From Albula goreensis (taxonomy: Eukaryota > Chordata > Actinopteri > Albuliformes > Albulidae): DNA of 64,000 bases. Below the pieces are notes generated by a model. That model did not search any database. It was given only the letters and a program-made list of their open reading frames with translations, and was not told the origin of the DNA. Of this stretch, positions 34,114 through 58,735 are shown one piece after another. Within the stretch, counting starts at the first letter, position 1. Each line of letters opens with the position of its first letter. The DNA lies in the NCBI GenBank assembly GCA_022829145.1, contig CM040763.1, positions 3,081,842-3,145,841 on the forward strand, in the 5' to 3' direction. The translations under genes were made by a program, and so were the position numbers.

Positions 34114-34176
34114 CTGCAGAATTCTGTCCCCTTCCCGGATTCGGCCATCTCTTGCTGCGATGCTGTTTGGCCCGAC
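34114..34176 (-). CDS. pdzrn4: pdzrn4 exon: middle of PDZ2
   Basis: This 63-base exon in phase 0 encodes residues 153-173, running from VGPNSIAARDG to REGDRILQ. The stretch is the PDZ2 segment with helix A and the conserved GDRILQ turn before the second exon break. Acceptor CCCTCTCCAG/GTC and donor CAG/GTACCA frame it. ARDGRIREGDRILQ is the PDZRN4 form, where I recall PDZRN3 as AKDGRIREGDRIIQ. The short size means it is missed by simple reading-frame scans. Confidence 0.94.
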
Positions 34177-36448
34177 CTGGAGAGGGAGAAAAACAGTCTT
34201 TATCTTAAGCTTTATAGCACTCAGCCAAACTCTTAAGCAAACAGCGTGATGAAGGCATGCTGTTAAAAAAAGCAAAAAAGCAAGGACTTTCAGACTCCTT
34301 CCTAGGTGAACCTGTGTGTACACTGGTATTTTCTCCAATGACAGCTGCAACCCCCCGAATCGCAACAACCGTTAATTATTCTTAATTAGACACTTGCATT
34401 GTCTATTAATTGATGGTTTACTCAAATAAGCCACGTGATTCCAGAAATAGCTATGCATGCCATTAAGAATAACTATATAGCTATGTTTACCATGAGGGAC
34501 ACAAAGCTCCTTTACTCGATGTGGCACGAAGGTGAGACTTTTTGAAAAGAGGACGGTAAGGGGATGAAAACACAATCAAGAGCACACCACTTTCATTCAT
34601 TCTTCTATTTCTCTACTATAATTTCATTCTGCTTGCCTCCATGAGTCCTAAACTTTATTAATCTCAAGCCACTGGTTGTCTTTCTGGAGCAATGCAATTA
34701 ATAAATAATTATCCTCATAAAGGTTTTGCGTATACGGTGACAGACTCTACACGCTTCCTGTCTCGATCGGGAGGCAATTTAGATAGTGTCAAACTGGATT
34801 ATGAATAGCGGTTTACGCTGTTTAACTGATTAAAAAAATTAATCTTCACAAGCACTCAGGACGTAACATTAATATGATTATGTGAGGGGAATCTCGACTG
34901 AAACGTTGTCTCCTTTCAGCCAATTACTGACTTTCAAACGGCGCTCAGCTGTGGGAATGAATGCACTGAGATTTCTTAGCGTTTGTAGTTCTGAATCGGG
35001 AATGTTTCCGGAGATATCCTGGGAGGAGCCTACATCCATGATCCTAAACATCTCTGCCATCAGTTTTAATAGACAGAGCATCATAAGACTCGAATGGGGT
35101 AACATTTTCGCGTGTCAAATCCAACCTCTGAAAATGTCTTTGAGTTAAATCTGTATGTTAAGTTAAACCAGTCCTTAGTTGTATCAGTCAGTCACATTTT
35201 TCAGGTTGTGGTCCAACCTACTGACAAGAGTACAAGATACAGGAGTAAAGAAGGTGGCAAATGATTCGTGAAGAACACAGGTTGAGCGAAATAGGTACCT
35301 GTAGTTGGGGCACTGTGTAATGGATGAGGAATGACTTGTAATGACTTCACCTGTCCCACTTTACCTGAATTTGGTTTAAATTTTGATATTGTTTCACAGA
35401 ACCCTTTGATGTGTAAATGAATAATGCAAAACAGAAGAGCTTGATATGTTGTATTTTGCTAGTGAATTCTAAGCAAAGCAGATGGCTACAACTGATTTAG
35501 ATGTTCAGTTTCCCTTATAAATAAGTATCTCTATTGATGTCCAGGAATGATCTATATTTTTTTAGCATAGCAAAAACACTGTTGCTAATGTTTTTCACCC
35601 AGCGATGGCGACTGGGCATTCACTGAGACAGATTTACGTCTCAGGACCAGCCTTGTGTAAAAAAAAAAAAAAAAAAATGTCCGCCAAAGTCCCCCTGGCT
35701 TGACTTTAACGAGATTGAACAAAGGGGCAGGTCCCACTCGAAACCGCAATTCGATTGTTGTCCTCGCCCATTTATTTCACTCTGTCCAAATAGCCTCGGA
35801 GTCGTCAATATCTCATGGGATTTCTACCAACTCTGTGTTCCATCTTTGTCGCACAGTTAGCACACCCCCCCCCACTCATTAACCACGATGCACTGCCTTT
35901 GCACGTAATCAGATCAGACGAGCTCGGTCTAATACAGACAGCCACTTCGCTACCACAGTAATCCTCTCCAAAGGCAAATTCACTGTACCCAGCTCAGGCT
36001 GCTGAACACAGATATGCAGCACGCACTACATTCAGAACCAAAAGCGTGGGAATAAAGGCAGGAGATCGCATTACGCTATCCACAAGATCGGATCGATGAC
36101 TTGGACCGCCATTTCAGTGTTGGCTAATTAACAAAAGAAGAAAGAAAAGCCCATCAGCTCAATCGCTCTCATTATGATCATGAAAGAGAACCATGCTTGA
36201 AATAATTAGATAGAAATACATTTATACCACAACATGCCAATATAAATCGAAACCAGTGTGTCATTTGACTTGTTTCAAACGATCTCAAAGTTTTGCTCTT
36301 TACAACTCAACATGACACAATGACTGGTAAAAATCAGTAAATTACTGGTGACATATGGTCGCTCCGCCCATTTTGATGTCATTAAACCTCAGTGTTCCAT
36401 CACCATGACATAGTGGAACTCCCTGTTCAACTAAGAGTTATATAATGC

Positions 36449-37669: not shown

Positions 37670-37796
37670 TGATTACATTGCATTACATTTTAGGCATTTA
37701 GCAGACGATCTTATTCAGAGAGACGTATTTAACCTGCATATTTTTGTACATGCAATCTGTTTATACAGCTAGATATTTTTACTGAAAAAGCTCAGC
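37670..37796 (-). mobile_element. tRNA-derived SINE body and tail
   Basis: TTACATTTTAGGCATTTAGC followed by AGACGATCTTATTCAGAGAG matches, in reverse complement, the common fish SINE tail (CTCTGGATAAGAGCGTCTGC, then TAAATGCC). It continues leftwards from minisatellite array 1 and gives the orientation (head right, tail left). The box B part of the head is not recognisable between body and array. Confidence 0.8.
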
Positions 37797-38492
37797 TCCC
37801 TATCCAGTATACTACACTGTAACCTCTGAGCTACAAGCCCAGCTCCCTAACCATTACACTACACTGTAACCTCTGAGCTACAAGCCCAGCTCCCTAACCA
37901 TTACACTACACTGTAACCTCTGAGCTACAAGCCCAGCTCCCTAACCATTACACTACACTGTAACCTCTGAGCTACAAGCCCAGCTCCCTAACCATTACAC
38001 TACACTGTAACCTCTGAGCTACAAGCCCAGCTCTCTAACCATGACACTACACTGTAACCTCTGAGATACAAGCCCAGCTCCCTAACCATTACACTACACT
38101 GTAACCTCTGAGCTACAAGCCCAGCTCCCTAACCATTACACTACACTGTAACCTCTGAGCTACAAGCCCAGCTCCCTAACCATCATACTACACTGTAACC
38201 TCTGAGCTACAAGCCCAGCTCCCTAACCATTACACTACACTGTAACCTCTGAGCTCCCTAACAAGCCCAGCTCCCAGCTAACCATTACACTACACTACAC
38301 TGTAACCTCTGAGCTACAAGCCCAGCTCCCCATAACCATTACACTACACTGTAACCTCTGAGCTACAAGCCCAGCTCCCTAACCGTTAGAATACACTGTA
38401 ACCTCTGAGCTACAAGCCCAGCTCCCTAACCATTACACTACAGTGTAACCTCAGAGCTACAAGCCCTGCTCCCTAACCGTTAGAATACACTG
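37797..38492 (-). repeat. SINE-derived 47-bp minisatellite, array 1
   Basis: About 14 copies of a 47-bp unit, CTACAAGCCCAGCTCCCTAA followed by CCATTACACTACACTGTAAC and CTCTGAG on the plus strand. On the minus strand the unit reads GTGTAATGGTTAGGGAGC and TTGTAGCTCAGAGGTTACAG, the 5' half of a tRNA-derived SINE head. The SINE body with its tail lies directly to the left, so the array sits inside one minus-strand SINE. Copies are mostly identical; a few near 38240-38290 are rearranged. Confidence 0.95.
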
Positions 38493-39261
38493 CCATTCAT
38501 TCTGGTAACATGAAAAGAGGGTTTGTGCTCTGCCAGAAAGTGAAAGGGATTCTGGGAGGAAAACCGCTCTTGTGAAACTTTGATTGTGTTTGGCGTACGG
38601 TGGAAGAAAATGGGAAAATGTGCCATTTTACACTCTGCAGGATATGGGGAGGGTGTCAGTCAGAACTAATTAAAAACCACAATTAAAATGTAAGAAGGGG
38701 AGGATCGTATCACAGACATGAGCTCCTCTTTGCACGAGGTTCGCTCTCCGTAGCTGTTTACACAGAAAGCTGTCTGGACTGGACTCCATTCAGCCTTTAT
38801 AATTGTGTTAACACTTTCCGTGCCAGTGTGTCATATCCACATCAGCAGTTTTCACCCTCCCTTCCAAAATGCATTTATCATAATGGACAATGGGAACAAG
38901 AAACATACATTTTCATGAACTGCGTTATTACAGAGCAACGGAAATTCATGACTGGCCGTTTGTATTGATTCTGGCATCGATTTCTATCCGCTTGCTTGGT
39001 TAGTGAAAGACTTGCCAATACGAAAGCCTTGCACTCTATTCATTATGTATGATCATGCAAGACACTCTGTATTAAATATTATTCGGCATATATGCATCTG
39101 TGGCATTTCTGAGGACTGATCCAATCAACATTCTCCCTTAACTTTGACCTTGCAAATGTTGTTTTCTCTCTTTTCAAAACCTTCACAAATTTATTTTACA
39201 AGCCAGACAGTATGCTTCTACCAAGCTTCAAAACTCAACAACGTACATAATTATTGATGAA

Positions 39262-39430
39262 CACAGGTTTACACATCCAGGCATTCTGCAGATGTCCTTT
39301 TCCTGGGTGACTAAGACACAGTTTCTGCACACATTACACAGCTACTGCAGCAGTCTGGGTCAGGTACCATGCTTGACGGCACGTCAGCAGTGCCCTGGAT
39401 ACAAGAATCTGCTGAAGGCCCCAATGTAAT
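39262..39430 (-). mobile_element. Truncated tRNA-derived SINE
   Basis: GGCATTCTGCAGATGTCCTT TTCCTGGGTGACTAAGACAC corresponds to the SINE tail in reverse complement, and GTACCATGCTTGACGGCACG TCAGCAGTGCCCTGGATAC to the middle. The tRNA head is missing. Confidence 0.55.
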
Positions 39431-39461
39431 ATGAACTTAACTTGCTGTCCGTAGCTCTCAC

Positions 39462-39560
39462 CTCACTGACGTAGATACCGATGTCTTCCTCGTCGTCCGT
39501 CCTGTAACACAGCGTAAGGCCTAGTTTCTCCTGGCTGTTCAGTCGACACAGTTCCACTTC
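39462..39560 (-). CDS. pdzrn4: pdzrn4 exon: first part of PDZ2
   Basis: This exon encodes residues 120-152, beginning [20 protein letters not shown] and ending [12 protein letters not shown] is the carboxylate-binding loop of PDZ2 (the GLGF position), followed by strand B (TLCYR) and strand C (GIYVSE). Acceptor CCTCTACAG/GAA and donor GAG/GTGAGA are both strong, and the exon is 99 bases in phase 0 at both ends. The reading matches vertebrate PDZRN4 almost residue for residue. It is separated by 5.3 kb of intron from the next exon and by 7.1 kb from the previous one. Confidence 0.95.
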
Positions 39561-40010
39561 CTGTAGAGGCAGAGAAAGATGAGCTCAGGCAGGGGTGGCA
39601 AACCCTGTTTCTGAAGGGCTGGTGTCTATGTGCGTTTATTATGTCTACAACAACAAAGCACAATGATTGGTTAATCACAGTGGAATATAGGTGCCAGCAG
39701 AATATGGTAACTCCACCCACTTTGTGATTGTGATGTCATAAAACTCTAGGAAGCAGTCTTTAAAGGTCGATATTTTTTGCACAACAGCACCTGGGATGTG
39801 ACCACAGACCTCAGCTTCCATTCAGTCTCACCTGTACAGGTGCATAGCCAGAACATCCAAGACATCAGACTGTAGAACATCAGGTTCGTTTTCTAAAAAA
39901 ACTCATCTATGCTAATCATTCCTCATTTATTCCACTGTTGGGGTTCAGTGGTGTTCTCCTTTTCTCCGAAGAAAAAGTTACAGAGGAAATGAATTATTCA
40001 TCGGATTTTC

Positions 40011-40038
40011 CTCAGAGGGACCGCGAAGTCCCTCTGAG
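40011..40038. repeat. Perfect 11-bp hairpin
   Basis: CTCAGAGGGAC and GTCCCTCTGAG flank the six-base loop CGCGAA. Confidence 0.9.
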
Positions 40039-41224
40039 CTTCTTGAGTTGGAATTCAGATTTTCACTCGGTCGTCCCTTCCAACTTTCCAAACTGCCTCT
40101 GAAGAACACGACCGAACACCCCAGAGGAAAAGCTCCCAAATTCTGCCTTTAAATCGCTCCACAGGATAATTTTCCTCAGCTCCAAAACAGGGGAAAATAC
40201 TGGAAATGAGACACAATTACTGCAAGAGGAATGCTTTCTTGTTTTTTAATCTATGCTGCCCATTTCAGCAGATTAATTCACAGCCAACATTTGGGTTTAA
40301 TAAATACAGCCCCCCCTTGTTCTGCATTCATTGAGATAATGTTCCTCTCCTGAAAATTACACATTAGTCATGAATTTCCCATGCTAAGCAGATCAGTGCT
40401 ACTGTACAAGCCATTAAATCTGAGATCAAAAGCAAAAAAAAAAAAAACAACGGGCTGGATTCACACCCTGCATTTGTCTCTCTCATTGGCACCATGCGGC
40501 CATTTGCGGCATGACCAGGCTTTTAATCAGCACAAACTGTAACAAATTAATGTCCCCGGCAAAAAAACAAAAATAAATAAATAAAAAGAATAAAAATAAT
40601 GACCCCAGCTTTGCGCTTTGCTTTGGGAACAACAAGAAAGACGATGGAAAGATAGCAGATAATAATGTGAAGCTGATATCTCACTGTCACCCATCATCAA
40701 CCCCGCCCACGATGTTTTTGTAAACAAAAATGAAAAATATTTGTTTGGGGGACAAGAATTACAGTGGAGGATACTCACAGAGTCTGTTATCGAGCTGATA
40801 ATTCCCCCTGCCCATTTTAAAAACAGAATATCACATTTTTGTACACAAAAACTGCTTTGTTTTGGAAACGACACAACAGACAGTGGTGTGTGACAACAGA
40901 TTATGTGTTAATACACGTGGCAGTTAAATATTATGTGATATTTACCCTTCAATTGTCATTCACAAGGAGAGGTATCTGCACACTTAGGAGGTGCTGCTTG
41001 CAGGTGTGTCAATCACAGAAGAAAGGAAGAAACTGCATGTGACAAGTGCATACTGCAAAAAGCGCTGTCTTTATTCACTTTTTCATTGCTAGACCTTAAT
41101 CAGAATGTGGAAACACACCGAGCACTTTCTCAAGTGATCGTCATTCTGCTGGGCAGAGAGGAAACAGACAACCAATTTGGGCGGGGAATCAGTCAGTTCT
41201 GCTCAGGTGAGAGTTTTTATGGCG

Positions 41225-41285
41225 ACGGAGAGTGCAGAGAGGGGAGAGCGGGAAGAGGAGAGGGAAGAGGAGAGGGAAGAGGGGT
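41225..41285 (+). repeat. Purine (GA) tract
   Basis: GGGAAGAGGAGAGGGAAGAG-type repeats of about 12 bp. Confidence 0.85.
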
Positions 41286-41579
41286 CTGGCACGCTGAGAA
41301 ATTCATTTCCCCTGACAGCTGGAGGCTGGCCGGTTACAAGTGCCAGGCTTGTCAGCACTTTGGATGAAAGAATCACAGATGGGGGGTGGTGTGGGGTGGG
41401 GGGGTGAGGGGCTGTGTTTCGGTGAGACACCTGATGTCTCTCCTCCTGCTAAGCCCCTCCCCCCTTCCCCCCCTGGGGGGAGGGGCTTCCTGGTGTTCCT
41501 CATCATCGCCGTGGCGACAGACCGTCAGTGGATCGTCGGGCCCAGGCTCGTCCTGCGAATTGCAGCCAGGCCCCACTCC

Positions 41580-41965
41580 CTCCGACCTGTCAGCCCACTT
41601 TACCTCTCCGTCTCACTCTATTTCTCCTGCCCTCTCTCTCCCTCTCTCTCTCTCTGTCTCCCTGCCCCTCTATCTTTCTCTCCCTCCATATCTACATATC
41701 CCTCTCTCTCACTTTCCCTCTCTCCGTCTTGTCAATCTCTGTCTTAAACCCTGTCTTCCTCCCTTCTGCTCTCCCAGCTTTCTGCCTTTGTCTCTCCCCA
41801 TCTTCCCTCTCTTTGTTTCCCTCTTCCAAACTCGATATTTCTCTCCCCATCTCTCTCTTCTTCTCACTCTCTGTTTTCTCTTAATCTCTTGATCTTTCTG
41901 TCTGTCTGACTCTCCCCTTCTCTCTTTCTCTTCTTCTCCCTGACTGTATTCCTCTCCCTCTCTAT
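41580..41965 (+). repeat. CT-rich pyrimidine tract
   Basis: Nearly 390 bases rich in CTCTCT and CCCTCTCT words. The open frames of 118-168 codons across it are low-complexity artefacts. Confidence 0.9.
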
Positions 41966-43789
41966 CTGATCAACTGGCTTTGGGTCAAACTTGGTTCATT
42001 GCACCTCGTCACATTTAGACAACGGGATTGCAATATATAATTTCAAAATTGTCAGCACGGGTCCAACTGAACATTAAGTGTCCATTTCTGGTGTCTCCAG
42101 GTCAGACCAGTGCACCTCCATCACGGTCCCATTTATTTTTGCCGGTTTGGTAATGGGGATGAGCAGTTCTCAGGATGCATAAGCCTCAAAAACGCTCACC
42201 ACGGTACAACAATACTTCATTTTAGCAATTAGCCACAATAAGAATGATGTATAGTCAAAAATGAATATGTGGTTCACTTACAGACATGGGAGAAGTAAAA
42301 GACTCTGACAGAAAATGAAGTACATGAAAATAACTGCTCCTGACATCTTTAAAAACAAAGCAAACTCATTTATGGAACCAGCCGAGGGCGAATGATCAAG
42401 AGTACCTCACTTCCTTCGCCTCAGAAGTTTATCGCCTTTCCTCATTACAGAACCTGAAGTAACTGTTTAATTAATTCCAACATGCACTGGAAGATGATTC
42501 CTGAGGTTAAACTAATTAATTAAGAAGGTAAATATATAGCACTGATCAGTTCATTATACATGGAATAAAAAGGAAAACAAACGGATGAGATTTAACCAAA
42601 ACCATGTAGGCTGAATCACATCAGAATTTAAATTACAACATTGTTCTACTTGAATATTTTATATTTTATTTGACAGAATCAAACATGCCCTTTGGAGTGT
42701 GTTGATTTTAAAATAGAATATTCTCTTGAAAAGACTAAGGTCCATTTTTGACTGTATTGCTCAAGCCCTTGAAGAGGCTAATGGCTTGATTTTTCAAAGC
42801 CATTCGCATATGTTAAAATTTTTGCATTATGATTTCAGTGAAATTATTGGAGCAAACAAACTACCTTAGTACAACACATGTGCTCATGTTTTTCTGCATC
42901 AGTAAAACAGTATTGCATGCACTACATACTTTAGTAGATCAGGCCCTGAGTAGGTTTGACTGAATCTACCCCATTGTGTTACAGGAGTCCTTGCTATGTG
43001 TAATTTTCCCATATTCCACTGCCTCGAAAGCACTGCACTGTCTCCAGGTACTGAGTGCCTGCGGTAGGAAAGCTGGAAAACTCTAGATTGTGGAAATGTC
43101 TGGGGAGCGTTCAGCGGCCTCTCCCTTCTGCTGCCGCATCCTTCTGACGAGCTCTCGGAGTTTCAGGCGGGATGCGGCCTCGGGTGGGAGCAGCGGGCGG
43201 ATTGGCGATAAATTAATGACGGCGATTATGTGATTAAAAGAGATTACCGCCTACTGTCGGCGCACGTCGGGTTCTTCTCATAATAATCAGGCCTTTGATT
43301 AGCGGGAGAGTGGAAGCGCGGGGGAAGAGGGCATGTGACGGCCACACGCAAGGCGAAGGAGCGGTCTCCGCCGCTGTACCCAGCTGGATAAAGGACTGCA
43401 AACTCCACGATCAAACAAAGATTAAGAGGGAGTGATGCACTTCAGTATGGGTACATTTCATCTGCACTGTACAAAAAAAACTCAAACATTCTCTTAATAT
43501 GTGTGTGAAGCATCTGATACTTCAAACAGACGGCTTGAATTGTCAGCTGTGTACAGTAAATGCTTCATCGCTCTGTCATCAACAACTAAACTCCAAACAA
43601 AAATACTTTGAAGAGCAATATAACAATGGATAACAATGCTTTTTGGAGATACAAGGTTTTTTTTTTTTTAATTTAATTTCAGCTGCACTCCATTTCATAA
43701 ATTTAGACTAAGATCTGTGTTTCAGCAAAGCACTGCTTCAAATTTGACCCTGCAAACTGCTGCTAATTTGACCCCCATAAGCTAAGAGC

Positions 43790-44070
43790 CTGAGCTGGAC
43801 CAGATCCAGATTTGACTGGGCCACAGTGTGCGCAAGTGGTCCAAACCCAGCCATAGTACCTAAAAGATGTCTGGGTGGAACTAGGACAGAGTAGACCAAA
43901 TAGGGGGCAGACCAGGGAGCACCAGGCAAGATTGGGCCAAACTGGACCAAGGCAAGCTCAAACATACCTAGATGGACTAGGCCAAAGTGGGCTATACTGG
44001 ACAGGAGCTGGACCAGATAGATCCAAATTGGCTAAGTTTCCAACAAAACCTTGAGCTGGACCAGGGCCAG
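43790..44070 (+). repeat. Irregular GGACCA/GGGCCA-rich repeat
   Basis: Words such as GAGCTGGACCAGATCCAGAT, TTGGGCCAAACTGGACCAAG and GATGGACTAGGCCAAAGTGG recur without fixed spacing, as in a decayed minisatellite. Confidence 0.6.
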
Positions 44071-44580
44071 AGCAAGGGAGAGGGAGAAGAGAACTGCATT
44101 GTGGGAACACTTTTTTTCCAAGAAGTTGTGGTCTGCCCCAGCTTTGACCTGGGGTGGGTGGGACTGGGGGGGTTAATGACACACCCCCCACCAATGCCAA
44201 CACCCCCAACTCCCCAGCTCACTGGACCAAAGGTGCCCATTTACCCATAATGCACCACTGAGCATAGCCATCCATGTGTTATCCGTCATCCTGACAGGAC
44301 TGTGGGACAGCAGGATCCATCCATGGGGGAACGCACAATTACTCACCCCCTCCTGCTGCACTGGAGACAGGGATACAGAGCATGCCTTCTCCCCCATTCA
44401 GTATCACAGCCCACAGACAAAACCCTTTATTCAGCGCTCAACGCCCTCACACACTGAGTCAGCATCCGCTTACGCCGGTCTGTCCCATCGATCTACATCA
44501 CACGGAGCCAACTATGTAATAACTGCTTGAGCATGATTTTAGCCTGGACTGAATCAAAGTTTGACCTTAACTTTCTTACA

Positions 44581-45397
44581 AGCCAGCTCTCCAACTATTA
44601 CACTACACGGTAACCTCTGAGCTACAAGCCCAGCTCCATAACCATTACACTAAACTGTAACCTCTGAGCTACAAGCCCAGCTCCCTAACCATTACACTAC
44701 ACTGTAACCTCTGAGCTACAAGCCCAGCTCCCTAACCATTACACTACACTGTAACCTCTGAGCTACAAGCCCAGCTCCCTAACCATTACACTACACTGTA
44801 ACCTCTGAGCTACAAGCCCAGCTCCCTAACCATTATGCTACGCTGTAACCTCTGAGCTACAAGCCCAGCTCCCTAACCATTACACTACACTGTAACCTCT
44901 GAGCTACAAGCCCAGCTCCCTAACCATTACACTACACTGTAACCTCTGAGCTACAAGCCCAACTCCCTAACCATTACACTACACTGTAACCTCTGAGCTA
45001 CAAGCCCAACTCCCTAACCATTACACTACACTGTAACCTCTGAGCTACAAGCCCAGCTCCCTAACCATTACACTACACTGTAACCTCTGAGCTACAAGCC
45101 CAGCTCCCTAACCATTACACTACACTGTAACCTCTGAGCTACAAGCCCAGCTCCCTAACCATTACACTACACTGTAACCTCTGAGCTACAAGCCCAGCTC
45201 CCCATAACCATTACACTACACTGTAACCTCTGAGCTACAAGCCCAGCTCCCTAACCATTACACTACACTGTAACCTCTGAGCTACAAGCCCAGCTCCCTA
45301 ACCATTACACTACACTGTAACCTCTGAGCTACAAGCCCAGCTCCCTAACCATTATACTACACTGTAACCTCTGAGCTACAAGCCCAGCTCCCTAACT
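44581..45397 (-). repeat. SINE-derived 47-bp minisatellite, array 2
   Basis: About 17 copies of the same 47-bp unit in the same orientation as array 1. Most copies are identical apart from scattered substitutions and one two-base insertion shared in form with array 1 (CCCATAACC). The flanks carry no recognisable SINE body: the left edge breaks after CTTACAAGCCAGCTCTCC and the right after CTCCCTAACTGTTATTG. Confidence 0.95.
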
Positions 45398-46217
45398 GTT
45401 ATTGTATAACACGACCCCTACAACCATCATTGTAATGCTGGAAATAAGCTGTGATGAACAAGTGTTACCTAAAGCTACCACATAACACTCCAGAACTTTT
45501 TCTATGATCCTGCGGCGACATTATCTCCTAATGCTTTATCTGGGGTACATAATTATCTATCAATGATAGCCCTGAGGGGGAGAAACAGAATATATTCAAT
45601 TGTGACATTCTGCCATAAGAATCCACTGAGGATGCTGTAATGCAGGGAGTGGAAGTTACCCAGCGTGGAGAATAACCTTCCGGGCATGAAATAAAAGACA
45701 GAGCGACAGAATGCACACCAGGGTTTAATAGGATTTGTTAATAGAAATGAGGCAGAAAGGGATGGCTCTTATATAATATTCGCACTGATTTAACACAGCC
45801 AGTGAGTGCGTAGACCTTTTTTTCTTTTTTTGCTGAACAGAATAAATTACCCTTGCTTGACGTATGGAGGCATTTGGAAAATTTACATGGTTTTTTTTTG
45901 GGGGTTAATCAGTCTGCGTCTCTCAATACGCCACAGTTTGCCTGGTCCTCAATGACGTGGAAACAAAAGCACATCAGTGCAGGCGAGCGCCGCATGGCTG
46001 CGTGACTGTGAGCGTCTATGTGACTCTGGGCTGTGGGCAGGAACGGTTTATTATTAGCTACATGATACGCAGTGGGGGGGGGGGAGGGGGATTTAATTGA
46101 GGCTTTTGATTTCATTAAAAAAAAAAAAAAAGTTTAACAAGGAAAGTACAAAATATTTTTCAGGTTCAATGCTGTCAGCAGAACAAGGTGCCGTAGATGG
46201 AAACTTTGGGGAAAGTA

Positions 46218-46372
46218 CACACTCCAAAACTAATATAAGGAAGTAAAGATTGCAAACAGAGAGTTGTCCAGGCTTGGAACAGTTTGCAAGGTCAGGTAGT
46301 AAAAAGCCAGAGACCCTTGGAGTGTTGAAGACCAGATTTGATGCAGTGCTGGACACTCTATACACTGCAGGT
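46218..46372 (+). mobile_element. CR1/L2-type LINE, C-terminal end of ORF2 (fragment)
   Basis: Reading the plus strand with one frame change gives RVVQAWNSLQGQVV and then ETLGVLKTRFDAVLDTL. This is the pattern at the very end of reverse transcriptases of the CR1/L2 group (RVV..WN.LP..VV, then F+..LD..L). Only this short 3' end is present; it is broken by a frameshift and ends before any clear 3' repeat tail. Assignment below the group level is not possible by eye. Confidence 0.6.
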
Positions 46373-46684
46373 AAAGGACACATCTGCACTGTGTTTTCCA
46401 TAAATATTCTCCATACTGGGTCTCTTATCTGTCAAACTCTCCTGAGCGGAGAACTCCAACCCAACGAATGTCAGCTGTCACACATAGAACCCTCTACCCC
46501 TTGGGAGCAGGTCTGTGAAGTCAATTAGAAAGCCCAAACCCACAGTCTTTCTGTTGATTAGAGAAGCCTGCGACACTGCTGTCAGGATGGGGGGAAGGTC
46601 AGGAGAGAGGTGGGGGAGAGGGATCAAAATGGCCACCTTGGAACTTTTTTATTAAGAGTGGTGTGAAGCCGGCTCGAGCCTCAC

Positions 46685-46787
46685 CTCATACTCAAACTCT
46701 TCAGTCCGCTCCGCGTCTGCCTGGACGGGCGAGAGGTAGTCCGTGCCCTCATAGAACTCGTGTTCCATCGTCTGGAGTGAGTGACAG
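46685..46787 (-). CDS. pdzrn4: pdzrn4 exon: PDZ1-PDZ2 linker
   Basis: This 103-base exon encodes residues 85-119, reading (S)CHSLQTMEHEFYEGTDYL and ending EEFEYE. It matches the PDZRN4 linker as I recall it (SCHSLHPMEHEFYED, then DFEYE before EVELCR). The acceptor is ATGACAG at 46788-46789; using it completes the split Ser codon left by the upstream exon. A second AG 16 nt downstream (46772-46773) would put the exon out of phase. The donor is GAG/GTGAGG. On the transcript the acceptor is preceded by about 250 nt of almost pure pyrimidine. The segment is acidic, has no domain of its own and spaces the two PDZ domains. Confidence 0.93.
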
Positions 46788-46794
46788 CTGTCAT

Positions 46795-47047
46795 AGAGAG
46801 AGAGGGAGAAAGAGACAGAAGAGGAGAGAGTGTGAATGAATGAGAGAGAGGGAGAGTGTGTGAGAAAGAGGTTGAGGAGACAGAAGAGAAGGAATGCAAA
46901 CAGTAAGAGAGAATTAGTGAAGAAAAAAGATGGAGAGAAAAAGAAAGGAGCAAGAAAAGGAGAGAGGAAGGTAGTGAAAGGGAGTGAAAAGGGAAGGAGA
47001 GGAAAAGAGATTCAAGAGAAAGAGAGGGAGGAAGAGGGAGAAAAGAC
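46795..47047 (+). repeat. Purine tract next to a pdzrn4 acceptor
   Basis: About 250 bases of A and G with few pyrimidines. On the transcript strand it is a polypyrimidine tract ending at the acceptor of the 46685-46787 exon. Confidence 0.9.
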
Positions 47048-47137
47048 CATGAGCCAGGCTGTCCCTCTGGGCACAGAGGCAGCTCCGCTCGTCCTTCGTC
47101 TGGACGCCGGGAGCGCTGAACCATGAGAAAGGGAGAC

Positions 47138-47298
47138 CTGTCAGGCCCTGCCCGTAGCCGTGGCGATGCCCTGACAGGCCCTGCCGTAGCCGTGGCGACG
47201 CCCTGTCAGGCCCTGCCGTAGCCGTGGCGATGCCCTGACAGGCCCTGCCGTAGCCGTGGCAACGCCCTGTCAGGCCCTGCCGTAGCCGTGGCGATGCC
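47138..47298 (+). repeat. 32-bp minisatellite, five copies, alternating types
   Basis: Unit CTGACAGGCCCTGCCGTAGC CGTGGCGATGCC. Copies alternate between CTGTCAGG...GATGCC and CTGACAGG...ACGCC starts and ends, giving a 64-bp higher-order period. The first copy has one extra C. Confidence 0.95.
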
Positions 47299-49704
47299 CT
47301 TGTACACATCAGAGGGACCCAGCAGTATGTGCTTATTTCACCTGCTCTGTCTATCTGACTTCAGTTACCTCACCCACTGCACAGAGACTCAGCCACTTCT
47401 ACCAGGTAAACCATCCTCATGATATCAAATGAAGATTTTGCTAATAAAATAAATGAAAAAAAAAAAGTTTTGTAAAACAAAACTGAGACTGCCAGCAGAA
47501 TGGAAAGTTGGCACGAATTTGGCACATTGATAATGAAGGGATACGATTGGTCTCTTCGCACGAAGAAACAAAGCACCATAAACCATAATTGCACAGTAAC
47601 GGTGAGGCAGTCATTTTTCTGAAAAGTGCAGCCTAAACTGGTGATTTAAAAAAGAGGAATAAAGACAGAGATATAGGTTCTCGTATTTAATTTTTGTCAA
47701 ACGCTTCTCCGCACACCAATAAGCACACTTGACCATTTTTGTTTACTAGGGTTTTCAGGAAAACAGACCCACTACAAGGACAAATCTGGGACGATAAATG
47801 TCACAATGTTTTAATGTGTTTGTCCAATAATATCTCATTCTGCATCTTTCCCAAGCATGCACATGCATAAAAAACATCAATATACAATTTTACGGTTTTT
47901 TGCTGAAATTAGGGTGGGAAAAAAAACCCCAGCTGTGCCCAGCCGTTTGTTGTACCTATAAAACTAGCAGTATTCTGGCTATCTTCACCTGATCCCACAC
48001 AAAATGGACAGACTGTCTGTGCTTTATGGTTTGAGGTAAATACAGTCAGACTCGTCCGCCGGTCATAAAGCTTCGGAAATAAACACCGCACCACATTGCC
48101 TGCTTTTATTGGTCCATTCGCTCTTAATCACCTTGTAAACTCTTCATTAAAGTGAATGAATGCGTCCGGCTTTGCCAGTTATTACATGCAGGTTTGGAAT
48201 GAAGTTTTATGCATTGTGGAGTTAGCTTATCATTGGCTTATCATCTGGACTGAAATGTTGCTGACAAAAAGCGGGCGCTTTGTATGGTTTCTGAAGCCTG
48301 GAAGCAACCTGAAGTAGGTTAAGTTCCAAAATAGAATTGAGTTAAAACAAAACCTGTCATTAATCTTCTCTTGCAAATAAATGCAAGAGACATAAATCAA
48401 ACATTAATAATCTCGTTTAACCCTGGTCATGGTAAGGGAAACAGAACTGAAATACAGCTTTCTTTTGACAGAAAAGTCAGTACAGAAGTAAGTTGGCTTT
48501 ATCGGTTAAGCCAGCACTGAGAGACCATAAGCAAAGACTTACATGAAAATGCTGAACTCAAACACATTGTTTAGGGAGTCAGGTACAGCAATGAATTTAA
48601 AACAATTAATTATCTGCAGCATATACATGACTCATTATCTCCCTAATAAACTCTCAGTCATTCACATTACCTTCACATCTTCATGTATATTCAGTGTTTA
48701 TCACCTTTCATTGTCCCCAAGGAAGAAACCTACATATTTCTCAAAGATAAACCTCCTTGAGTCCATGAGTTTCTACTCTCCACGAATGAGATCAAGGCAA
48801 AAAAAAAAATATTTTCTGTTGTTTCTCTTGTCCGTGTTTGTTGAGTCCCAGGAGGGCATCTGCAGAATTACATCCATAAGATTGTGGGAGCCTGTTTTCA
48901 GGCTGTCCTGCCAGGACATGGCAGCTTCTGGTTCTCATACACCAGGTGTCTGAGATTGTACAGCCTATAATATAATATTATATATATGTACTGGAATATT
49001 ATATCAAACCTAAATAAAATAGTTATTTGTAGTACTTTGACCTTTTAGACACTTGTTTAAATTCTGCAACTAACTTTTTAATTTTAAAGACGATTTATAT
49101 CATAATCAAAACAGTTCTTTCTTGAAACAATCAAAACAGTTCTTTCATATGTTTGTATACTTTTGTTAGTAACATGCTTTCTTGATATCAACCTGGGATT
49201 CTGCAGGTGTGACTTCAAAGCATGCACTGCAAGATTTCACCCTATGACAGACATGTTGGTCTGACTTTCGAGGACCTCAGGTTCCCTTGTAATGCAAGAC
49301 CATGACAGATGAAGTTGACTCTAAGGTCAGGCCGCTGAGCTGCATGCCACTGGAGATATTAGAGGCTGGGTGATATCATCAATGGGCGGGGTAGGAGGGG
49401 GCGAGGAACCGTATCTGTCTGTTTCAATTCTGAGGGAAACTGCAGGAATGGTTTGAAGTTGTGCCAGCATCTAACGTGTTAAAATATTTCATGGATTTGA
49501 CCCCATATATATAGGTTGGATCCTGCAGCAGCTACCTATTCTTATGATCCCCTGCAAGCAGATGACAGGGTATTGTCTGAAGAGGCCAAGTTGGTGTGCA
49601 TGGGTGACATCATTGGGAGGTGTGGGAGGAGGAGAGGAGAGGGTTGGGGGGAGGGGTTTGGGTGAAGGAGACGAGGTTTCAGGAAGTGGGGGTGGCAGTA
49701 GTAC

Positions 49705-49958
49705 CTGTCGGACAGCAGGAAGGGACAGATGTCGGGCACCGGGGGGGTGGTGGGCCGCAGTTTGGCGAGGGCCATGATGTGCTCGAAGGTGATGTCAGTC
49801 TGTGTGCAAACATCCACCAGCTGGACTTCCTGAGGGTTGCCATGGCTGCGGGAGGCGGGGTTCCGTCGCAGGACCTGCACCACTATGGGGTCCTTGGCAC
49901 TGCGGAACACTTCCACGGCCTCCTCGTGCGTCGCCTTGGAGATGTCCTTCCCATTCAC
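49705..49958 (-). CDS. pdzrn4: pdzrn4 exon: end of PDZ1 and following linker
   Basis: This is the most 5' coding exon of pdzrn4 that I can find in the window, and codes residues 1-84 of the partial product plus two bases of the next codon. It opens with [18 protein letters not shown], the last helix and strand of the first PDZ domain (about residues 1-33, ending VVQVLRR). A linker with [18 protein letters not shown] follows, a block I recall as nearly identical in vertebrate PDZRN4. The acceptor reads TTGCCGTAG before GTGAATGGG, and the donor is GACAG/GTACTA. The exon enters in phase 0, the junction where the human short isoform also joins its private first exon. PDZRN4 is a LNX-family protein with RING, zinc fingers and two PDZ domains, presumed to be a membrane-associated scaffold and E3 ubiquitin ligase. 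The paralogue PDZRN3 differs in the linker (ALTKMSS-type), so PDZRN4 is preferred. Confidence 0.95.
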
Positions 49959-50455
49959 CTACGGCAACAAAAAAAAAAACACAAAAACAACCACAGCGGC
50001 CTGTCAGAAAACACGTGCTACAAACAACCACAGGTTCCTGTCAAAAAACCATGTCCTAAATGAAACCACAGGGGCCCATTAAAAATCATAATGACTTTTA
50101 CACAGTTGGAGACTTTTTCTCAGGTGGAATAAAACAGAGAGTGAGCTTGGTTTGAAATTTGCAGGTTAGATTCCCACACTGGAGACAGTAGCCCTGTCCA
50201 CAATTTAACATCTTCACTGAGATACCTTTGGAGCTTGCCATTTTCATTTTATTTGAATAACACCTGTTGAAAAAACTAACTATACCGCAACTGGTCAAGT
50301 CACCCTTAAAATCATATTCATATTAGAAATACATTGAAAATATAATGAATCTCCATGAGTTTTAACTGGTAAAAAGAAAGGATGAAACAGGTCACCCTTG
50401 AAAAGATGTATTTAATCTCCATGAGTTTTACCTGGTAAGGTAAACAATAAAACAG

Positions 50456-50517
50456 ACACAAACACACATGTACATATACACTTATGTGCACACACACACA
50501 GACACACACACACACAC
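50456..50517. repeat. CA-rich microsatellite
   Basis: Interrupted CA dinucleotides. Confidence 0.92.
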
Positions 50518-51958
50518 TTAAACACATACTGCTCCTCATCTGTAAGGTAGCTTTACACTTCTACTATCCTGCTGCTTCTTTAACCCCCCCACCACCTATA
50601 ATCCCCCCCCACCTATACCCCCCACCCCAATGACTGCCCGTTATCATCATCCAGGCTTATTGGCCAAACCTCATTAGCACCTCCTTACAGTCCTTTAAAA
50701 AAATCACCCAGTGTCGTTTCCTTTATTGGAGGTTAATGGCACTCCCATTTCCACTCACTGACTCAAACGTATCGCGTCCCCGACAGAGTGTACACCACAG
50801 CCCCTTTGATTAAGCGGAAAATAATGACGTACTTTCTCTCCGCAAGGAAGGAGGTTATTCGTTACACAAAGACACCTGGCGGGGCAGCTCGAGTTCCCTG
50901 ATCATTGGGTAAAAACCGTCAGTATCCAGAGTTATGCTGACTCAACATTAGCCTGGCTAACTAGCATTTACTTTAGCCTTTTTGCTTATGCACTCGATGA
51001 TCTGGAAATCTTCTGCAAGTCCTATTAGCCTATATTAATCAAATGAATTCATGCATGGCCTCCATTTGCACATCACTCTGGAGTGTGTAGAAAGTCAATG
51101 CAATGTAATGTGTTTTGATATTTAATTTTTATATATGGCCAATTTCCTATGGTTAGATATAAAGAGAGGTAAAAATATTTTTGAATATTTGGCTAAGGGC
51201 ATGGTACATCCTGGGACCATGTACCCACTGGATATGTCCTAAACCTTTCCCAAGCCATAAATATAAATACCGAGCTACGTCTTTATTTTGGACCTTTTTG
51301 GCCAGTGGAGTGTGACCAAGCTATCCTTTTGGTGCAGGTTTTCTGCAGTCTGACCAGGCCCTGCAGATTTCTGATAACAGATCTGGTATCAGCAGTTTAG
51401 CATTTCACACCACCCCTCTATCATAGGATTCATTTAATCATAGTAACCAGTGATAGGACAATCACATTAGCCAATCACATCCCTGGAAACTGGGCACACT
51501 GGAGAATGACTGTGACATCACATGATAAATTAATCACTCTAATAACAATGAGCCCAAAAGCAGGTATGAAAAAAGGTCCAATAGACAGGGCTGTCTGTCT
51601 TCAGATTTATGGACTGGTCATGTTTTAGGAGATTTCTGGGGGGTGTGTGTGCCCCCATCCCTAGGGTAAGCATATTTCCCGAGGCTTAAATTGGGACACT
51701 GATCAAAATTAATAATGCCCCATGCAGCCAGCCTAAACAAGCTCCAGCTGTGTTTTTCTTCTGGGGGTTGTGCTAAGTGCAAAACCTTATGTATTGTCTG
51801 TCTGACCAGCTCAATACTATAGCTTAGCCGTCATTCAGAAAGATGGAAATGCCAAAAAAACCATCACACATTTTACACAATGCTGAAAATACATTTGACC
51901 TAAAATACATATTTGACCTCAGGGAAAACAGGATGTCCAGTCACCCTATCCCCAATTA

Positions 51959-51983
51959 TACACACACACACACACACACACAA
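51959..51983. repeat. (CA)n microsatellite
   Basis: About twelve CA units. Confidence 0.93.
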
Positions 51984-54845
51984 ACACCCATGCCATGTTT
52001 TAGGAGGTATATGGAGCATACACAACACCTCTCCCTCCCCCCGCTGCACCCACCTACCATTCAGGAAAAGGGGGGGCAGACAGGGTCATTATCGGCTGCC
52101 GGACCCACAGGGTCCCCTCACCTCACATGGGAGCTCATTTTGGGTCCTCTGACACCAGTCAGCTGCCCCCGACAGACAGACAACCGTGACCCCCCCCCCC
52201 CAACTGTCCATCTCCCATCCTCGGACCGTCCACACACCTGTGAGGTCAGTCACAGGAACCAGGCACGACCAACCCAATTACAATTTCCCTCAAGGGCCTG
52301 TTTTTTTTCCACCAAAATCACCAACTGTTATCGCAGGGATACCATGTACTGAATGATCCAAAAAGAGGACAAGCACCAGGGAGGGGGTGTTGGGGATTTG
52401 GGGGGGTGGGGGGTTCTGTGTTTGGGGCTGTTCCCTGTGTGACATCGTCCACATTTTATTATCTTCAATATTCCGCTTAATGTGTGTGATGTTAACAGGT
52501 TTTATAATACAGGTGGTCAGTAATCACAGATGTATTTACAGAAATTCAAACTATGCACATTTTTTAAAAATCAATCAGGACAGAATTACATCTTTTTTGA
52601 GCTGAAAAAGAGGATATATCTCCACAAAAACCATACGTGTGGTAACATGGGTTTTTGGAGCGTTGACCTTACAATCTGTTTCAAAATGACATGTTTTAGC
52701 ACCCACACAATCATACAAAAATATATATATAAATAAATAAAAATTCAACAAACGTGTGAAAATAACCCCTCTTCCATTACAGCTACAACACAGCCTCTGT
52801 AGGTCAACACCTCATACAAGGGGATATTAAGGAAAGATCGGTCTAAACATGGCCCGCAGCCGTGCTCTCTTATTTAAGAACAAAGGAATGCCAGAGTTTA
52901 TTGATGTGAGCGGGTCACGCAGCCCATATAGGCTCGTAATGTTTTATATTTGCCATTTAGTCATCCCAGCTGACACGCTGGCTGTGTTTCTTAACATTTT
53001 CCCAGCTGCAGTATACTTTCCATTAATCATAACTCCCATGGGGCGCCCCTTTTCTCCACAAAGACACCAGAACGCCTCACTCCCTCACACGCCGTCTATT
53101 AATGATCAGATAAACACAACTTATTTTTAGAGAGAATCGTGAATGTGGAGTCTTTCGTTGAATTAACATGGGGCCCATTCATTTTCCTAAATCACTTCAC
53201 TTAATCCAAAATCACTTTCCTGATCATTTCCTTAACTCTGGTGCTGGATTCTCAATAATATCTTTCAGCTGAGATAATGCTATGGTATTGTGTTTCATCT
53301 ACAGTCAGCAGGTCACAATTTGGTATACAGGAAACCCGACCTTCATAGTGATAAAGTAGCTTTATTTTTAAAGTGTTTAACCGCTGCTGGACTGGTGAAG
53401 AGCAGGGCACGCTATCAGGGTCTGCTACCCTTTACCGATCATTTCAATAATAGAATAATACATCCCGATGATGTAATTACAGCGCGATGACAAGAGTGAT
53501 GGAGAACACACCCGAATATGCTTGTTAGCACTCCACTGGATACGGACAATGATGAAAAGCAGCGGTAACGCACAGACAACGGTTCTAGATCGGTGAATAA
53601 ACGTCTCCGGTGATCAATTGGACACATCAGAGCCCACCATTCGTTAAGCGAATTGAATACATCCACGCTGCGGTGGGAAAATAAAGTTAACGCTCCATTT
53701 AATTCAGTAATGAGATCGAAACACGGGGAACTGCCTTATGACAATGAAATACCATGGAGACGGTCGCCGTGGTGTAACGCAGGAAACCGAAGATAAGGAA
53801 ACGGCCGAACAATCTCTGCGTACGAGGTTAACCCACCGAATACGATATTTCATGAACAAGATATTACAGTGAGTCACTTCTCTCCTTATTCTTTCTTGGC
53901 ACCGGCAATATAAAATGGTCTCATGCTCTTGAGCAGGGGGAAAAGAGTCTAAAAGGTGAAAAGAATCAGCTCTGGATTCAGCTTGACTCCAGCGAGATTG
54001 TAAATGAGCACCCTTCAGTAGAAAAGAGAGGTGATTTATTGGAAACGAGCTGCAGGGATCAGCTTCAGTTATGAGCTGTGACGGATCGACACAAGCCTCG
54101 GAGCGGCACGTGCACCAGCGTCTTGTCAGTTCAGAGACGTTGTGATACGCAGCCTGAAAAGCTGTGAACCTCCAGACTTAAGACTACTGATACCTTCGCA
54201 AGATCCCTGCAATCATATCCACACATTGTGTTTTTCAGACGTCATCATACCCTGGTGATTCTTTTCCACAGCTGTGCGATACAAAACAATACATCAACAC
54301 ACCTGCAATGTGAGCCTGTCAATGGGGATCGAGAGGTTTCTCAACATCATCATTATTTCTTGCATTCATTAACATTTTCAATAACACCTCAGAACCTTTG
54401 GCTGGCGCCAAGTTACCAGTTGGCAATCTCCAGTGTAACTAGTACCACAACGTACTTCTAAAGATGTTTTACAAATGCTATTTCCATAACCAATGCTGAC
54501 AAATAAACATCCATTAATATTTCACAATGTTAACTAAAAAGCACCCATTCTTAAACTGCAGCACAACTAATAAGTACCCATTATTATTACAACTCTACAC
54601 TAAAAACCCATTAACACATACAATGTTAACAGTAAACACTCATCAATACTGAGAAGCGCTAACAATAAACACACATTAATACAGTTCAGTGCTAAGAATA
54701 AATACCCATTAATACCGAGCAAGAAATGTCCGTTGATACGGCGAGTGGGTGCGCGACCTTTCCGTCAGGTGATGTTGCATTAATCAACGGCTGGAAAAAG
54801 AGGGTCAGTCAGGGCTTCTGCTTCCTGCACTGAGCGTCTGAGAGT

Positions 54846-54848
<3 letters not shown>

Positions 54849-54891
<43 letters not shown>

Positions 54892-54892
54892 T
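54849..54892. repeat. (GT)n(GA)n microsatellite
   Basis: Sixteen GT units followed by GA units. Confidence 0.97.
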
Positions 54893-55004
54893 GGCACTGG
54901 CAGAAAACTTCCTCACCCCTTTCCAGTGTCAGCAGTTGCTAAATAACATACATATACAGCAGTAATAAGACACAGTTAAAGAAGAGCTAAGAGAACTGAG
55001 ACAG

Positions 55005-55792
55005 TAGTGCAGTATAATGGTTAGGGAGCTGGGCTTGTAGCTCAGAGGTTACAGTGTAGTGTAATGGTTAGGGAGCTGGGCTTGTAGCTCAGAGGTTACA
55101 GTGTAGTGTAATGGTTAGGGAGCTGGGCTTGTAGCTCAGAGGTTACAGTGTAGTATAATGGTTGGGGAGCTGGGCTTGTAGCTCAGAGGTTACAGTGTAG
55201 TGTAATGGTTAGGGAGCTGGGCTTGTAGCTCAGAGGTTACAGTGTAGTGTAATGGTTAGGGAGCTGGGCTTGTAGCTCAGAGGTTACAGTGTAGTGTAAT
55301 GGTTAGGGAGCTGGGCTTGTAGCTCAGAGGTTACAGTGTAGTGTAATGGTTAGGGAGCTGGGCTTGTAGCTCAGAGGTTACAGTGTAGTGTAATGGTTAG
55401 GGAGCTGGGCTTGTAGCTCAGAGGTTACAGTGTAGTGTAATGGTTAGGAGCTGGGCTTGTAGCTCAGAGGTTACAGTGTAGTGTAATGGTTAGGGAGCTG
55501 GGATTGTAGCTCAGAGGCTACAGTGTAGTGTAATGGTTAGGGAGCTGGGCTTGTAGCTCAGAGGTTACAGTGTAGTGTAATGGTTAGGGAGCTGGGCTTG
55601 TAGCTCAGAGGTTACAGTGTAGTGTAATGGTTAGGGAGCTGGGCTTGTAGCTCAGAGGTTACAGTGTAGTGTAATGGTTAGGGAGCTGGGCTTGTAGCTC
55701 AGAGGTTACAGTGTAGTGTAATGGTTAGGGAGCTGGGCTTGTAGCTCAGAGGTTACAGTGTAGTGTAATGGTTAGGGAGCTGGGCCTATAAC
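55005..55792 (+). repeat. SINE-derived 47-bp minisatellite, array 3 (inverted)
   Basis: About 17 copies of the 47-bp unit in the orientation opposite to arrays 1 and 2 (AGTGTAATGGTTAGGGAGCT then GGGCTTGTAGCTCAGAGGTT). The last copy runs on into a SINE with a box B-like GGTTCAGGTTCC at 55806-55817. The array is therefore an internal expansion of the head of a plus-strand SINE. Confidence 0.95.
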
Positions 55793-55960
55793 TCAAAAGC
55801 TGAAGGTTCAGGTTCCAGGTAAGACACTGCTGTTGTACCTGAAAGAAAGATACGTCACCTGAATAGCTTCAATAAATATTCATCTAGGGAGGGGAAAAGT
55901 TTAAGTCACTGAATAAGAGAGTCTGCTGAATGGCAATACATTAAGTGGAGAGGCTGGCCC
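55770..55960 (+). mobile_element. tRNA-derived SINE, remainder after array 3
   Basis: The sequence runs from the last repeat copy through GGTTCAGGTTCCAGGTAAGA, CACTGCTGTTGTACCTGAAA and on to the tail AAGAGAGTCTGCTGAATGGC. Order and wording match the other SINE copies in the window: tRNA head, CACTGCTGTTGTACC, then GTCTGCT-AATGGC. Confidence 0.85.
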
Positions 55961-57710: not shown

Positions 57711-58317
57711 GGTCTTTGTGCCATGGGGTCTTTGTATGCTGGTGAGTCATTTGTCTGTTTACAACGGCGCCAATATAAGAGAATAAAAGAGAGAAGGTTT
57801 GCCTGTTGATGCACAGTGTATGGTTTCTCATTCGCTCACCAGCACCATCGACTGTAAACAAAAGCTGTTCCCCATGAATAATTTAGCAAAGAATTTCCTA
57901 ATGATAGCTGAAACTGTTTACAAATAAAGAGCACAGGGCTGCACTTTCCACGCTGAGCCAATGTAAATATCAGTCATTCGGTCAGGTTTTTTCAGCCAAG
58001 TCAAACCAGCGCGGGTGTACGCTACATGTTTACTCTTAATGATGTTATGTGTTGTTCCCATCCACCCCCCTCCCCTCACTCTGTTGACTCTATGCTTAGG
58101 CCAGCATGTGTGTGTGTGAAGTTGGACCAGGCGTGCGTGTCGAGCCGATGTCTTGGGACCCTGTTGAGCGAATGGCTTGATGGTCGTCCATCTGTCTGTG
58201 TTTACACTGGGATATTGGACAGCTGAGGAAAGCACATGTGAGGGGAGGGAAGCAGAGGACGAGGCACACACAACGTCTCTCTCCAGAGGGCTGTGGTCTT
58301 ATTGCACAACTGCACTC

Positions 58318-58735
58318 TGCCGTCCTGAAAGGACTGTGGGTTTATAACGCACACAGACTCTGCTGTCCTGAAAGGACTGTGGGTTTATAACGCACACAGA
58401 ATCTGCTGTCCCGAAAGGACTGTGGGTTTATAACACATTTATAATGCACGCAGACTCTCCTGATCTGATAGGACTATGGGTTTATAACACATTTATAATG
58501 CACACAGACTCTCCGGAACTGAAAGTACTGTTGGTTTATAAAACATTTATAATGCTCACAGACTCTCCTGAACTGAAAGGACTGTGTGTTTATAACACAT
58601 TTATAATGCACAGTCTTGCATGACCTGGAAGGACTGGGGTTTATAACACATTTATAATGCACAGACTTGCATGACCTGGAAGGACTGGGGGTTTATAACA
58701 CATTTATAATGCACACAGACTTTACAGAGATGCAG
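58318..58735 (+). repeat. 43-55 bp tandem repeat, eight copies in two length classes
   Basis: Short copies read GTCCTGAAAGGACTGTGGGT TTATAACGCACACAGACTCT GCT. Longer ones insert ACATTTATAATGCAC after TTTATAAC. Copies to the right drift to CATGACCTGGAAGGACTGGG. Remnants of the unit (ACTCTGCC.CCAAGA) continue to about 59190. Confidence 0.92.

Follow-up and report, generated by a model that had tools for sequence, protein, structure and literature searches.

Minisatellite arrays built from one 47-bp unit of a SINE head lie toward the chromosome ends of Albula goreensis

A 64,000-nucleotide stretch of the Albula goreensis genome (contig CM040763.1 of assembly GCA_022829145.1, positions 3,081,842 to 3,145,841; hereafter the window) contains three tandem arrays of a 47-bp unit related to the tRNA-like head of a short interspersed element (SINE). 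The repeat is found at well over a hundred places in the genome, nearly all of them toward chromosome ends. All of the aligned arrays are of one unit type, the SINEs beside them are old and unrelated to each other, arrays and SINEs meet in register at variable points, and the loci are concentrated near contig ends. We think it likely, with a probability of roughly 60%, that SINE heads already present near chromosome ends received copies of a single founder array through homologous recombination or gene conversion, and that exchange among the arrays is continuing.

Tandem Repeats Finder confirms three 47-bp arrays in the window (scores 1149-1531), with copy numbers close to the 14, 17 and 17 reported in a first-pass annotation of this DNA. 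Strands are given relative to the direction of the SINE.

37788-38492, minus strand: array 1, about 14.7 copies, 91% matches, the most irregular of the three
44577-45396, minus strand: array 2, about 17.4 copies, 97% matches
55006-55785, plus strand: array 3, about 16.6 copies, 98% matches

The three share one identical 47-bp consensus, AGTGTAGTGTAATGGTTAGGGAGCTGGGCTTGTAGCTCAGAGGTTAC. The first-pass annotation had derived this unit from the 5' half of a tRNA-derived SINE head lacking box B, a claim that would fall if the two were not homologous. The homology is upheld: the unit matches the SINE head at 13300-13344 with 93% identity over 45 bp, and 44 of its 47 positions agree with a consensus drawn from 33 single-head SINEs. 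It terminates immediately ahead of box B. The differences are at positions 9, 35 and 46, the first of which is polymorphic in both. Position 35 is G in the unit and A in 31 of the 33 single heads; position 46 is A in the unit, with G in 28 and A in four of the 33. Among the 30 readable single heads (those anchored without gaps) G35 occurs once and A46 four times, and the two are never found together.

Position 46 lies at the joint between units, where most SINE heads have GGTTGCAGG before box B and the unit has GGTTACAG. Some SINE copies have GGCAAC-AG at their 5' ends, and in the unit GGTT runs into ACAG as though the two had been fused. The founding event may thus have been a fusion, within one SINE copy, of the end of the anticodon arm (GGTT) to that copy's own 5' end (ACAG), which would have given a 47-bp head-to-tail duplication before box B; a point mutation is the alternative. 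This duplication would then have expanded into a minisatellite. The G at position 35 also changes TAACTCAGAGG to TAGCTCAGAGG at unit positions 33-43, nearer to the box A consensus, and each unit may therefore carry two box-A-like stretches.

To compare arrays across the genome we used 38 arrays from 36 loci on 17 contigs (1390 full units), including those of the window; the 35 other loci come from the best 40 of 632 matches to array 1, a sample that favours query-like sequence. The consensus is identical in all 38 aligned arrays, except that A9 is the leading base in seven, and 1359 of the 1390 units contain both G35 and A46. The first-pass annotation had left open whether the arrays expanded independently or seeded one another, and these data support the latter. 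Three independent local expansions of SINE heads are suggested by the position of the window arrays, which apparently all lie in a single PDZRN3-like gene. However, the window's three arrays and 35 more have an identical unit, joint and derived base, and this unit type is absent from the 30 readable single heads; the common joint excludes independent expansion unless it arose many times, and we regard this explanation as very improbable. The possibility that the arrays are an assembly artefact has less still to recommend it: runs of N touch two of the 38 arrays (L012 and L038) and array lengths may be wrong, but the flanks differ among loci, and an exact 42-mer spanning the joint has 4,184 matches in the genome as against none for the reversed pattern. 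Given the number of matches, the earlier suggestion that the cluster is special to one gene is not supported either.

The arrays are strongly concentrated toward contig ends, which we take to be chromosome ends. The genome searched is a 932-Mb assembly of 208 contigs; the contig that carries the window is 25.9 Mb long, and the window occupies 3.08-3.15 Mb of it. The first 100 of the 4,184 matches by position are all on the 72.1-Mb contig C1, with 24 at 0.27-2.17 Mb and 76 at 64.9-69.2 Mb, and none of those listed lies from 2.17 to 64.9 Mb. Of the 36 array loci, 34 are within 5 Mb of a contig end, where 9.7 are expected. A rarer pattern, searched exactly or with one mismatch, gave 100 matches; three with the ancestral TAACTC were dropped, and the remaining 97, some of which could be mutated single heads, represent 76 loci, some overlapping the other samples. 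Omitting one locus on C21, 55 of 75 are within 5 Mb of an end (19.9 expected) and 69 are within 8 Mb (31.8 expected).

For the SINE itself we used the best 40 of 1123 matches to the window's copy, which is itself one of the 40; this sample also favours query-like sequence. Counted within short fetched stretches, 30 of these have no more than one head and ten have 4-16 units, with none of the 40 having two or three. All ten multi-unit copies are within 5 Mb of an end, compared with 10 of the 30 single-head copies, and the inner half of contigs holds nine of the 30 single-head SINEs but only one of the 75 rarer-pattern loci. Array loci are significantly nearer to ends than single-head SINEs, both for the 36 loci (p 9e-9) and for the 75 (p 6e-8).

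Five of the six rarer-pattern loci beyond 8 Mb form one cluster on contig C2. Together with L025 and L042, these five matches lie at 10.56-11.31 Mb in a contig of 50.2 Mb, and among the matches listed there are none in its first 10 Mb. The cluster could be the trace of a fusion or an inversion, or a sign of a misjoin; in frogs, decaying subtelomeric repeats are described at old fusions (PMC10794172). We also note that 16 of 23 contigs have array loci toward one end only (for example C20 on the right with eight loci and C5 on the left with seven), although several contigs have only one to three. Loci are at both ends of C1-C4, C6, C13 and C24, in a tally that possibly counts a locus twice. One-ended contigs would be expected if the chromosomes were acrocentric and the arrays lay at the end away from the centromere.

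The array flanks were searched with a SINE body model built solely from SINE stretches remote from arrays. At E<1e-4 it places a body no more than 350 bp 3' of the array in 12 of 35 cases. In a leave-one-out search over the same distance this rises to 15 of 35 (E<0.01), and every one of these bodies has the orientation of the unit; 14 of the 15 bodies start no more than 52 bp from the array, and that of L035 starts at 185 bp. No body was found in the 5' flanks (0/35) or in flanks shuffled in blocks of two (0/350); the 3' flank could not be read for three arrays, nor the 5' flank for three. The first-pass annotation had proposed to check whether each array sits in a SINE; a 3' body is present at 15 arrays, and none is detected at E<0.01 at the other 20. 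At L032 the 3' flank has an apparent inverted SINE tail (TTACATTACATTTGTTAGACACTCTTATC, identified by eye) in place of the array's own body.

In the window, two of the three arrays have an identifiable host SINE.

37684-37787, minus strand: 3' half of the host SINE of array 1, corresponding to body model positions 69-141 (nhmmer), without box B and without the first half of the body
55786-55936, plus strand: host SINE of array 3, with box-B region, body and L2-type tail

Array 2 has no body detected by the model in its flanks. The last head part in the host SINE of array 3 retains the ancestral A35, and among the three window arrays box B is kept only here. Where box B remains it is part of the host SINE, and its nearest box A is that of the last unit. 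The unit contains only the box-A half, and a role of the arrays as RNA polymerase III (Pol III) half-promoters is putative.

The host bodies are old, unrelated members of the SINE family, and the arrays are far more uniform than the SINEs that host them. Twelve array-side bodies have 67-78% identity to the body consensus and about 65% to each other, and four free bodies have 70-79% identity to the consensus; mean pairwise identity is 0.641 for array-bearing and 0.675 for free bodies. In a tree of 45 bodies (six of 51 with fewer than 90 columns were left out) the 13 array-side bodies are mixed among 32 free ones, with 11 label changes compared to 11.5 when shuffled, and 246 of 500 shuffles as low. 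The attached body acts as the array's own clock, in that old bodies beside near-uniform arrays separate the age of the site from that of the array. When flanks of up to 1.2 kb (35 + 35) were compared, the single match touching both arrays is the SINE body; flanks beyond the SINE are unshared, and segmental duplications of larger blocks are therefore not the carrier.

These observations bear on the possibility that a SINE source gene already contained the array and that the two were retroposed together, the arrays having been homogenised since. Several arrays begin at or near an apparent SINE 5' end (as judged by eye) and the orientation of the SINE is kept, both as this would predict. However, the array-bearing bodies form no subfamily, and we reject retroposition of an array-bearing SINE subfamily for want of a clade in the body tree, albeit one of low support. 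The body is also met at differing places, from model positions 1 to 95, and retroposition alone would not account for arrays near the ends of contigs when free SINEs extend further inward. We consider this origin improbable.

The junctions between arrays and bodies can be compared at 16 loci: the ten multi-unit SINE matches, five others, and array 3. In 14 of these the body starts near position 1, and 12 are readable, the other two (L042 and L024) being rearranged. The last unit has the SINE-type G46 at all 12. At position 35 it has the host-type A at five (L026, L059, array 3, L063 and L064) and the array-type G at seven (L056, L061, L062, L065, L067, L068 and L040). Bases 35 and 46 thereby mark the boundary between donor and host. 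The junctions are in register and fall at a varying point within a homologous stretch, and therefore have the mark expected of homologous recombination or gene conversion.

Extrachromosomal circles of units, integrating with or without SINE homology, would account for the 20 of 35 arrays that have no SINE body and for a well-mixed pool of units. Neither the in-register junctions nor the one-sided 3' bodies in a single orientation are explained by circles unless integration was homologous, and we find them a somewhat poorer prospect than retroposition.

Variation among the units is mostly mixed across arrays. A9 is found in all 38 arrays with a fixation index (FST) of 0.048, a one-base deletion at position 19 is present in 26 of the 38, and mean unit differences per 47 bp are 1.58 within arrays and 1.69 between them. 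When the units are aligned and grouped by array, as the first-pass annotation had proposed, they are thus largely intermingled, with a weak array-wise structure in addition. Per-base divergence from the consensus is 0.041 and 0.048 for edge units, about three times the 0.015 of inner units.

Several results weigh against copying from a founder. The within-array distance (1.583) is below that of all 200 label permutations (minimum 1.609) and the frequency of A9 is heterogeneous among arrays (chi-square 100, 37 d.f.); there is therefore weak local structure, and local growth or homogenisation is also ongoing. Shared multi-unit blocks between arrays can be dismissed, as they show no excess over shuffling units within arrays (the longest run has a mean of 2.95, compared to 2.84-3.08 in five shuffles); the pool of single units is therefore well mixed, and no recent transfer of blocks is seen. 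At 20 of the 35 arrays no SINE body is detected at E<0.01, and it may have been lost or never present; the body tree has no strongly supported branch. Four of the G35 junctions (L065, L061, L067 and L040) depend on weak body matches, with E-values from 3e-4 to 0.3, and a G35 at a junction could be a mutation of the host, since one of the 30 single heads has this base. Finally, single-head SINEs themselves lean toward contig ends (Kolmogorov-Smirnov p 0.03).

The main rival is expansion in place, in which SINE heads near ends were repeatedly duplicated on the spot and interlocus conversion then fixed one unit type. The frog repeats (PMC10794172) and those of squamates (PMC10702118) have been explained in much this way, and the weak local structure in unit variation is in keeping with it. 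However, none of the 38 arrays is made of an ancestral or different unit, and no head with two or three units is present among the best 40 of 1123 SINE matches, both samples being query-like. From this biased sample, copying is favoured because of the single unit type, the lack of two- and three-unit heads, and the G35 junctions; we judge expansion in place to be unlikely, but the strongest of the alternatives.

For copying from a founder, we envisage that founder units were transferred, after the array had formed, into the heads of many old, unrelated SINEs. Breaks in or near SINE heads would have been repaired on an array used out of register as the template, with several units being copied before the strand returned to the host. 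The location near ends would probably follow from frequent recombination and from contacts between chromosome ends, and short-tract exchange among arrays could maintain a common pool of unit variants. A bolder idea, to which we give somewhat less than even odds, is that this is a mobile-like tandem repeat without an enzyme of its own, which uses old SINE heads as homologous landing sites and moves between chromosomes by way of subtelomeric break repair. If so, dead SINE copies become the targets of a second, recombination-borne invasion. The full set of junctions from this one genome could show how fast interlocus gene conversion near chromosome ends proceeds, how long its tracts are and which targets it takes, and bears on the old questions of how satellites arise from mobile elements and why arrays on different chromosomes are alike.

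The arrays of the window somewhat resemble one another. A9 is rare in them (5 of 46 units, compared with 570 of 1344 elsewhere), and only 10 of 20,000 random array triples have A9 as low as this trio. Net divergence is 0.043 for array pairs less than 0.3 Mb apart and 0.086 between chromosomes, which is not clearly smaller (p 0.07). We reject an exclusive kinship of the three: low A9 is common to all of them, but the TG insertion of arrays 1 and 2 is also present in L031.

The SINE is a tRNA-derived element with an L2-type tail, having a tRNA-like head, a body and a 3' hairpin; the tail of the body consensus folds with a GGAUA loop (z -2.5 versus shuffles). ARAGORN finds no full tRNA in the window, which contains the following free copies.

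13149-13350, minus strand: free single-head SINE, ancestral at unit positions 35 and 46
14307-14460, minus strand: free SINE copy
32382-32571, plus strand: free SINE copy
39279-39412, minus strand: free SINE copy, between arrays 1 and 2

The first of these had been described, at 13140-13360, as the unexpanded parent of the arrays; it is an ordinary free SINE with the ancestral bases, and its role as the parent is conjectural.

The gene context of the arrays is provided by two features.

49857-49958, minus strand: exon of a PDZRN3-like gene that encodes the latter half of a PDZ domain (1uhp, KIAA1095)
33979-34371, minus strand: open frame with a PDZ-like stretch (a match to PDZ_6 at E 2.5e-4 that falls short of the Pfam cut-off)

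The best match of the exon is to KIAA1095 (1uhp; E 2e-11, the next best being 3e-4), which is PDZRN3, and a human PDZ sequence is 71% identical over 34 residues. There is no convincing match in the window to the first half of the domain, and Pfam searches of six open frames gave nothing besides the one weak PDZ match. Arrays 1 and 2 lie between the exon and the weak PDZ-like stretch near 34 kb; array 3 is upstream of the exon and is therefore intronic, provided that the gene is whole. We saw no sign that the gene has any bearing on the arrays.

Other minisatellites are present at 15620-15836, 47137-47300 and 58314-58721 of the window, with units of 34, 32 and 43/54 bp, respectively. By eye, a 51-56-bp unit (GTAGGGTGTAAAATAGTC...) at window positions 4586-4758 recurs from 4406 onward in L011 on contig C22, and dispersed minisatellites may therefore be common in these regions. 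A second minisatellite with a 37-bp unit is shared at about 95% identity between L028 (C2, 734 onward) and L039 (C3, 888 onward), near 47-bp arrays. Viral contigs gave no matches to the window, and an Rfam search of the window gave none.

Xenopus laevis Satellite 1 and the Hydromantes Hy/Pol III satellite are transcribed by Pol III. Like the arrays described here, both are derived from the tRNA-related region of a SINE-like element (PMC9659126), but the A. goreensis unit has only the box-A half. A Pol III-transcribed satellite of tRNA origin would be expected to hold box A and box B inside the unit, and this unit stops before box B.

Among fishes, the HAmo SINE of carps and UnaSINE1 of the eel similarly combine a tRNA head with an L2-type tail, and a hairpin with a GGAUA loop is described for HAmo SINE and UnaL2; HAmo SINE and UnaSINE1 are ordinary SINEs, and a head array is unmentioned in the available text (PMC2653535). 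In Coilia nasus, most of the repeats beside a SINE lie 5' of it, including one 20-bp unit in 14 copies at 8 bp from the SINE, but of the 13 simple or tandem/flank repeats beside SINEs none resembles the SINE head of A. goreensis in the portion available (PMC6951006). Complex satellites containing SINE and tRNA pieces are mentioned in a paper on catfish (PMC11955569). The accessible parts of two further fish papers (PMC6868151 and PMC4698564) contain no comparable SINE-head array, and no fish case of this form was found by title and abstract in a mostly non-subscription literature.

The closest parallels are in squamates and frogs. Squamate SINE-derived satellites (sSats) resemble these arrays in having units taken from within a SINE, a last unit that passes into the SINE, homogeneous loci and a preference for subtelomeres (PMC10702118). 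The A. goreensis arrays comprise four or more tandem units that correspond to a portion of a SINE and do not reach its full length. The terminal unit continues into the SINE in 15 of 35 cases at E<0.01, and units are homogeneous within and between loci (1.58 and 1.69 differences per 47 bp); the arrays prefer subtelomeres, with the SINE more evenly spread, although free SINEs also lean slightly to ends. Squamate units are about 70-290 nt long, and the 67-nt unit of a snake contains box B, unlike the 47-bp unit (PMC10702118). The restriction of such satellites to squamates is called uncertain in the same paper.

In frogs, including Xenopus tropicalis, a 52-bp part of SINE/tRNA-V is tandemly expanded only in subtelomeric copies and intact SINEs are found genome-wide (PMC10794172), a likeness to the expansion of a SINE part toward chromosome ends, with plain SINEs elsewhere, in A. 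goreensis. The frog unit comes from the 3' tail of the SINE, whereas the unit here is from the tRNA head without box B. The tetramers TGGG, AGGG and ACAG are enriched in frog subtelomeric tandem repeats (PMC10794172). All three are in the 47-bp unit, and the SINE head consensus has only TGGG and AGGG; 4,058 of 200,000 shuffled units hold all three, so that this could be due to chance. The frog account is one of recombination-driven expansion (PMC10794172), whereas one unit type and in-register junctions here point to a founder copied into old SINEs. A SINE-derived subtelomeric repeat is thus already known as a kind; what is new is the half-promoter head unit, the fish host and the junctions pointing to homology-based spread, and the A. 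goreensis arrays suggest that the phenomenon seen in frogs and squamates occurs in fish too.

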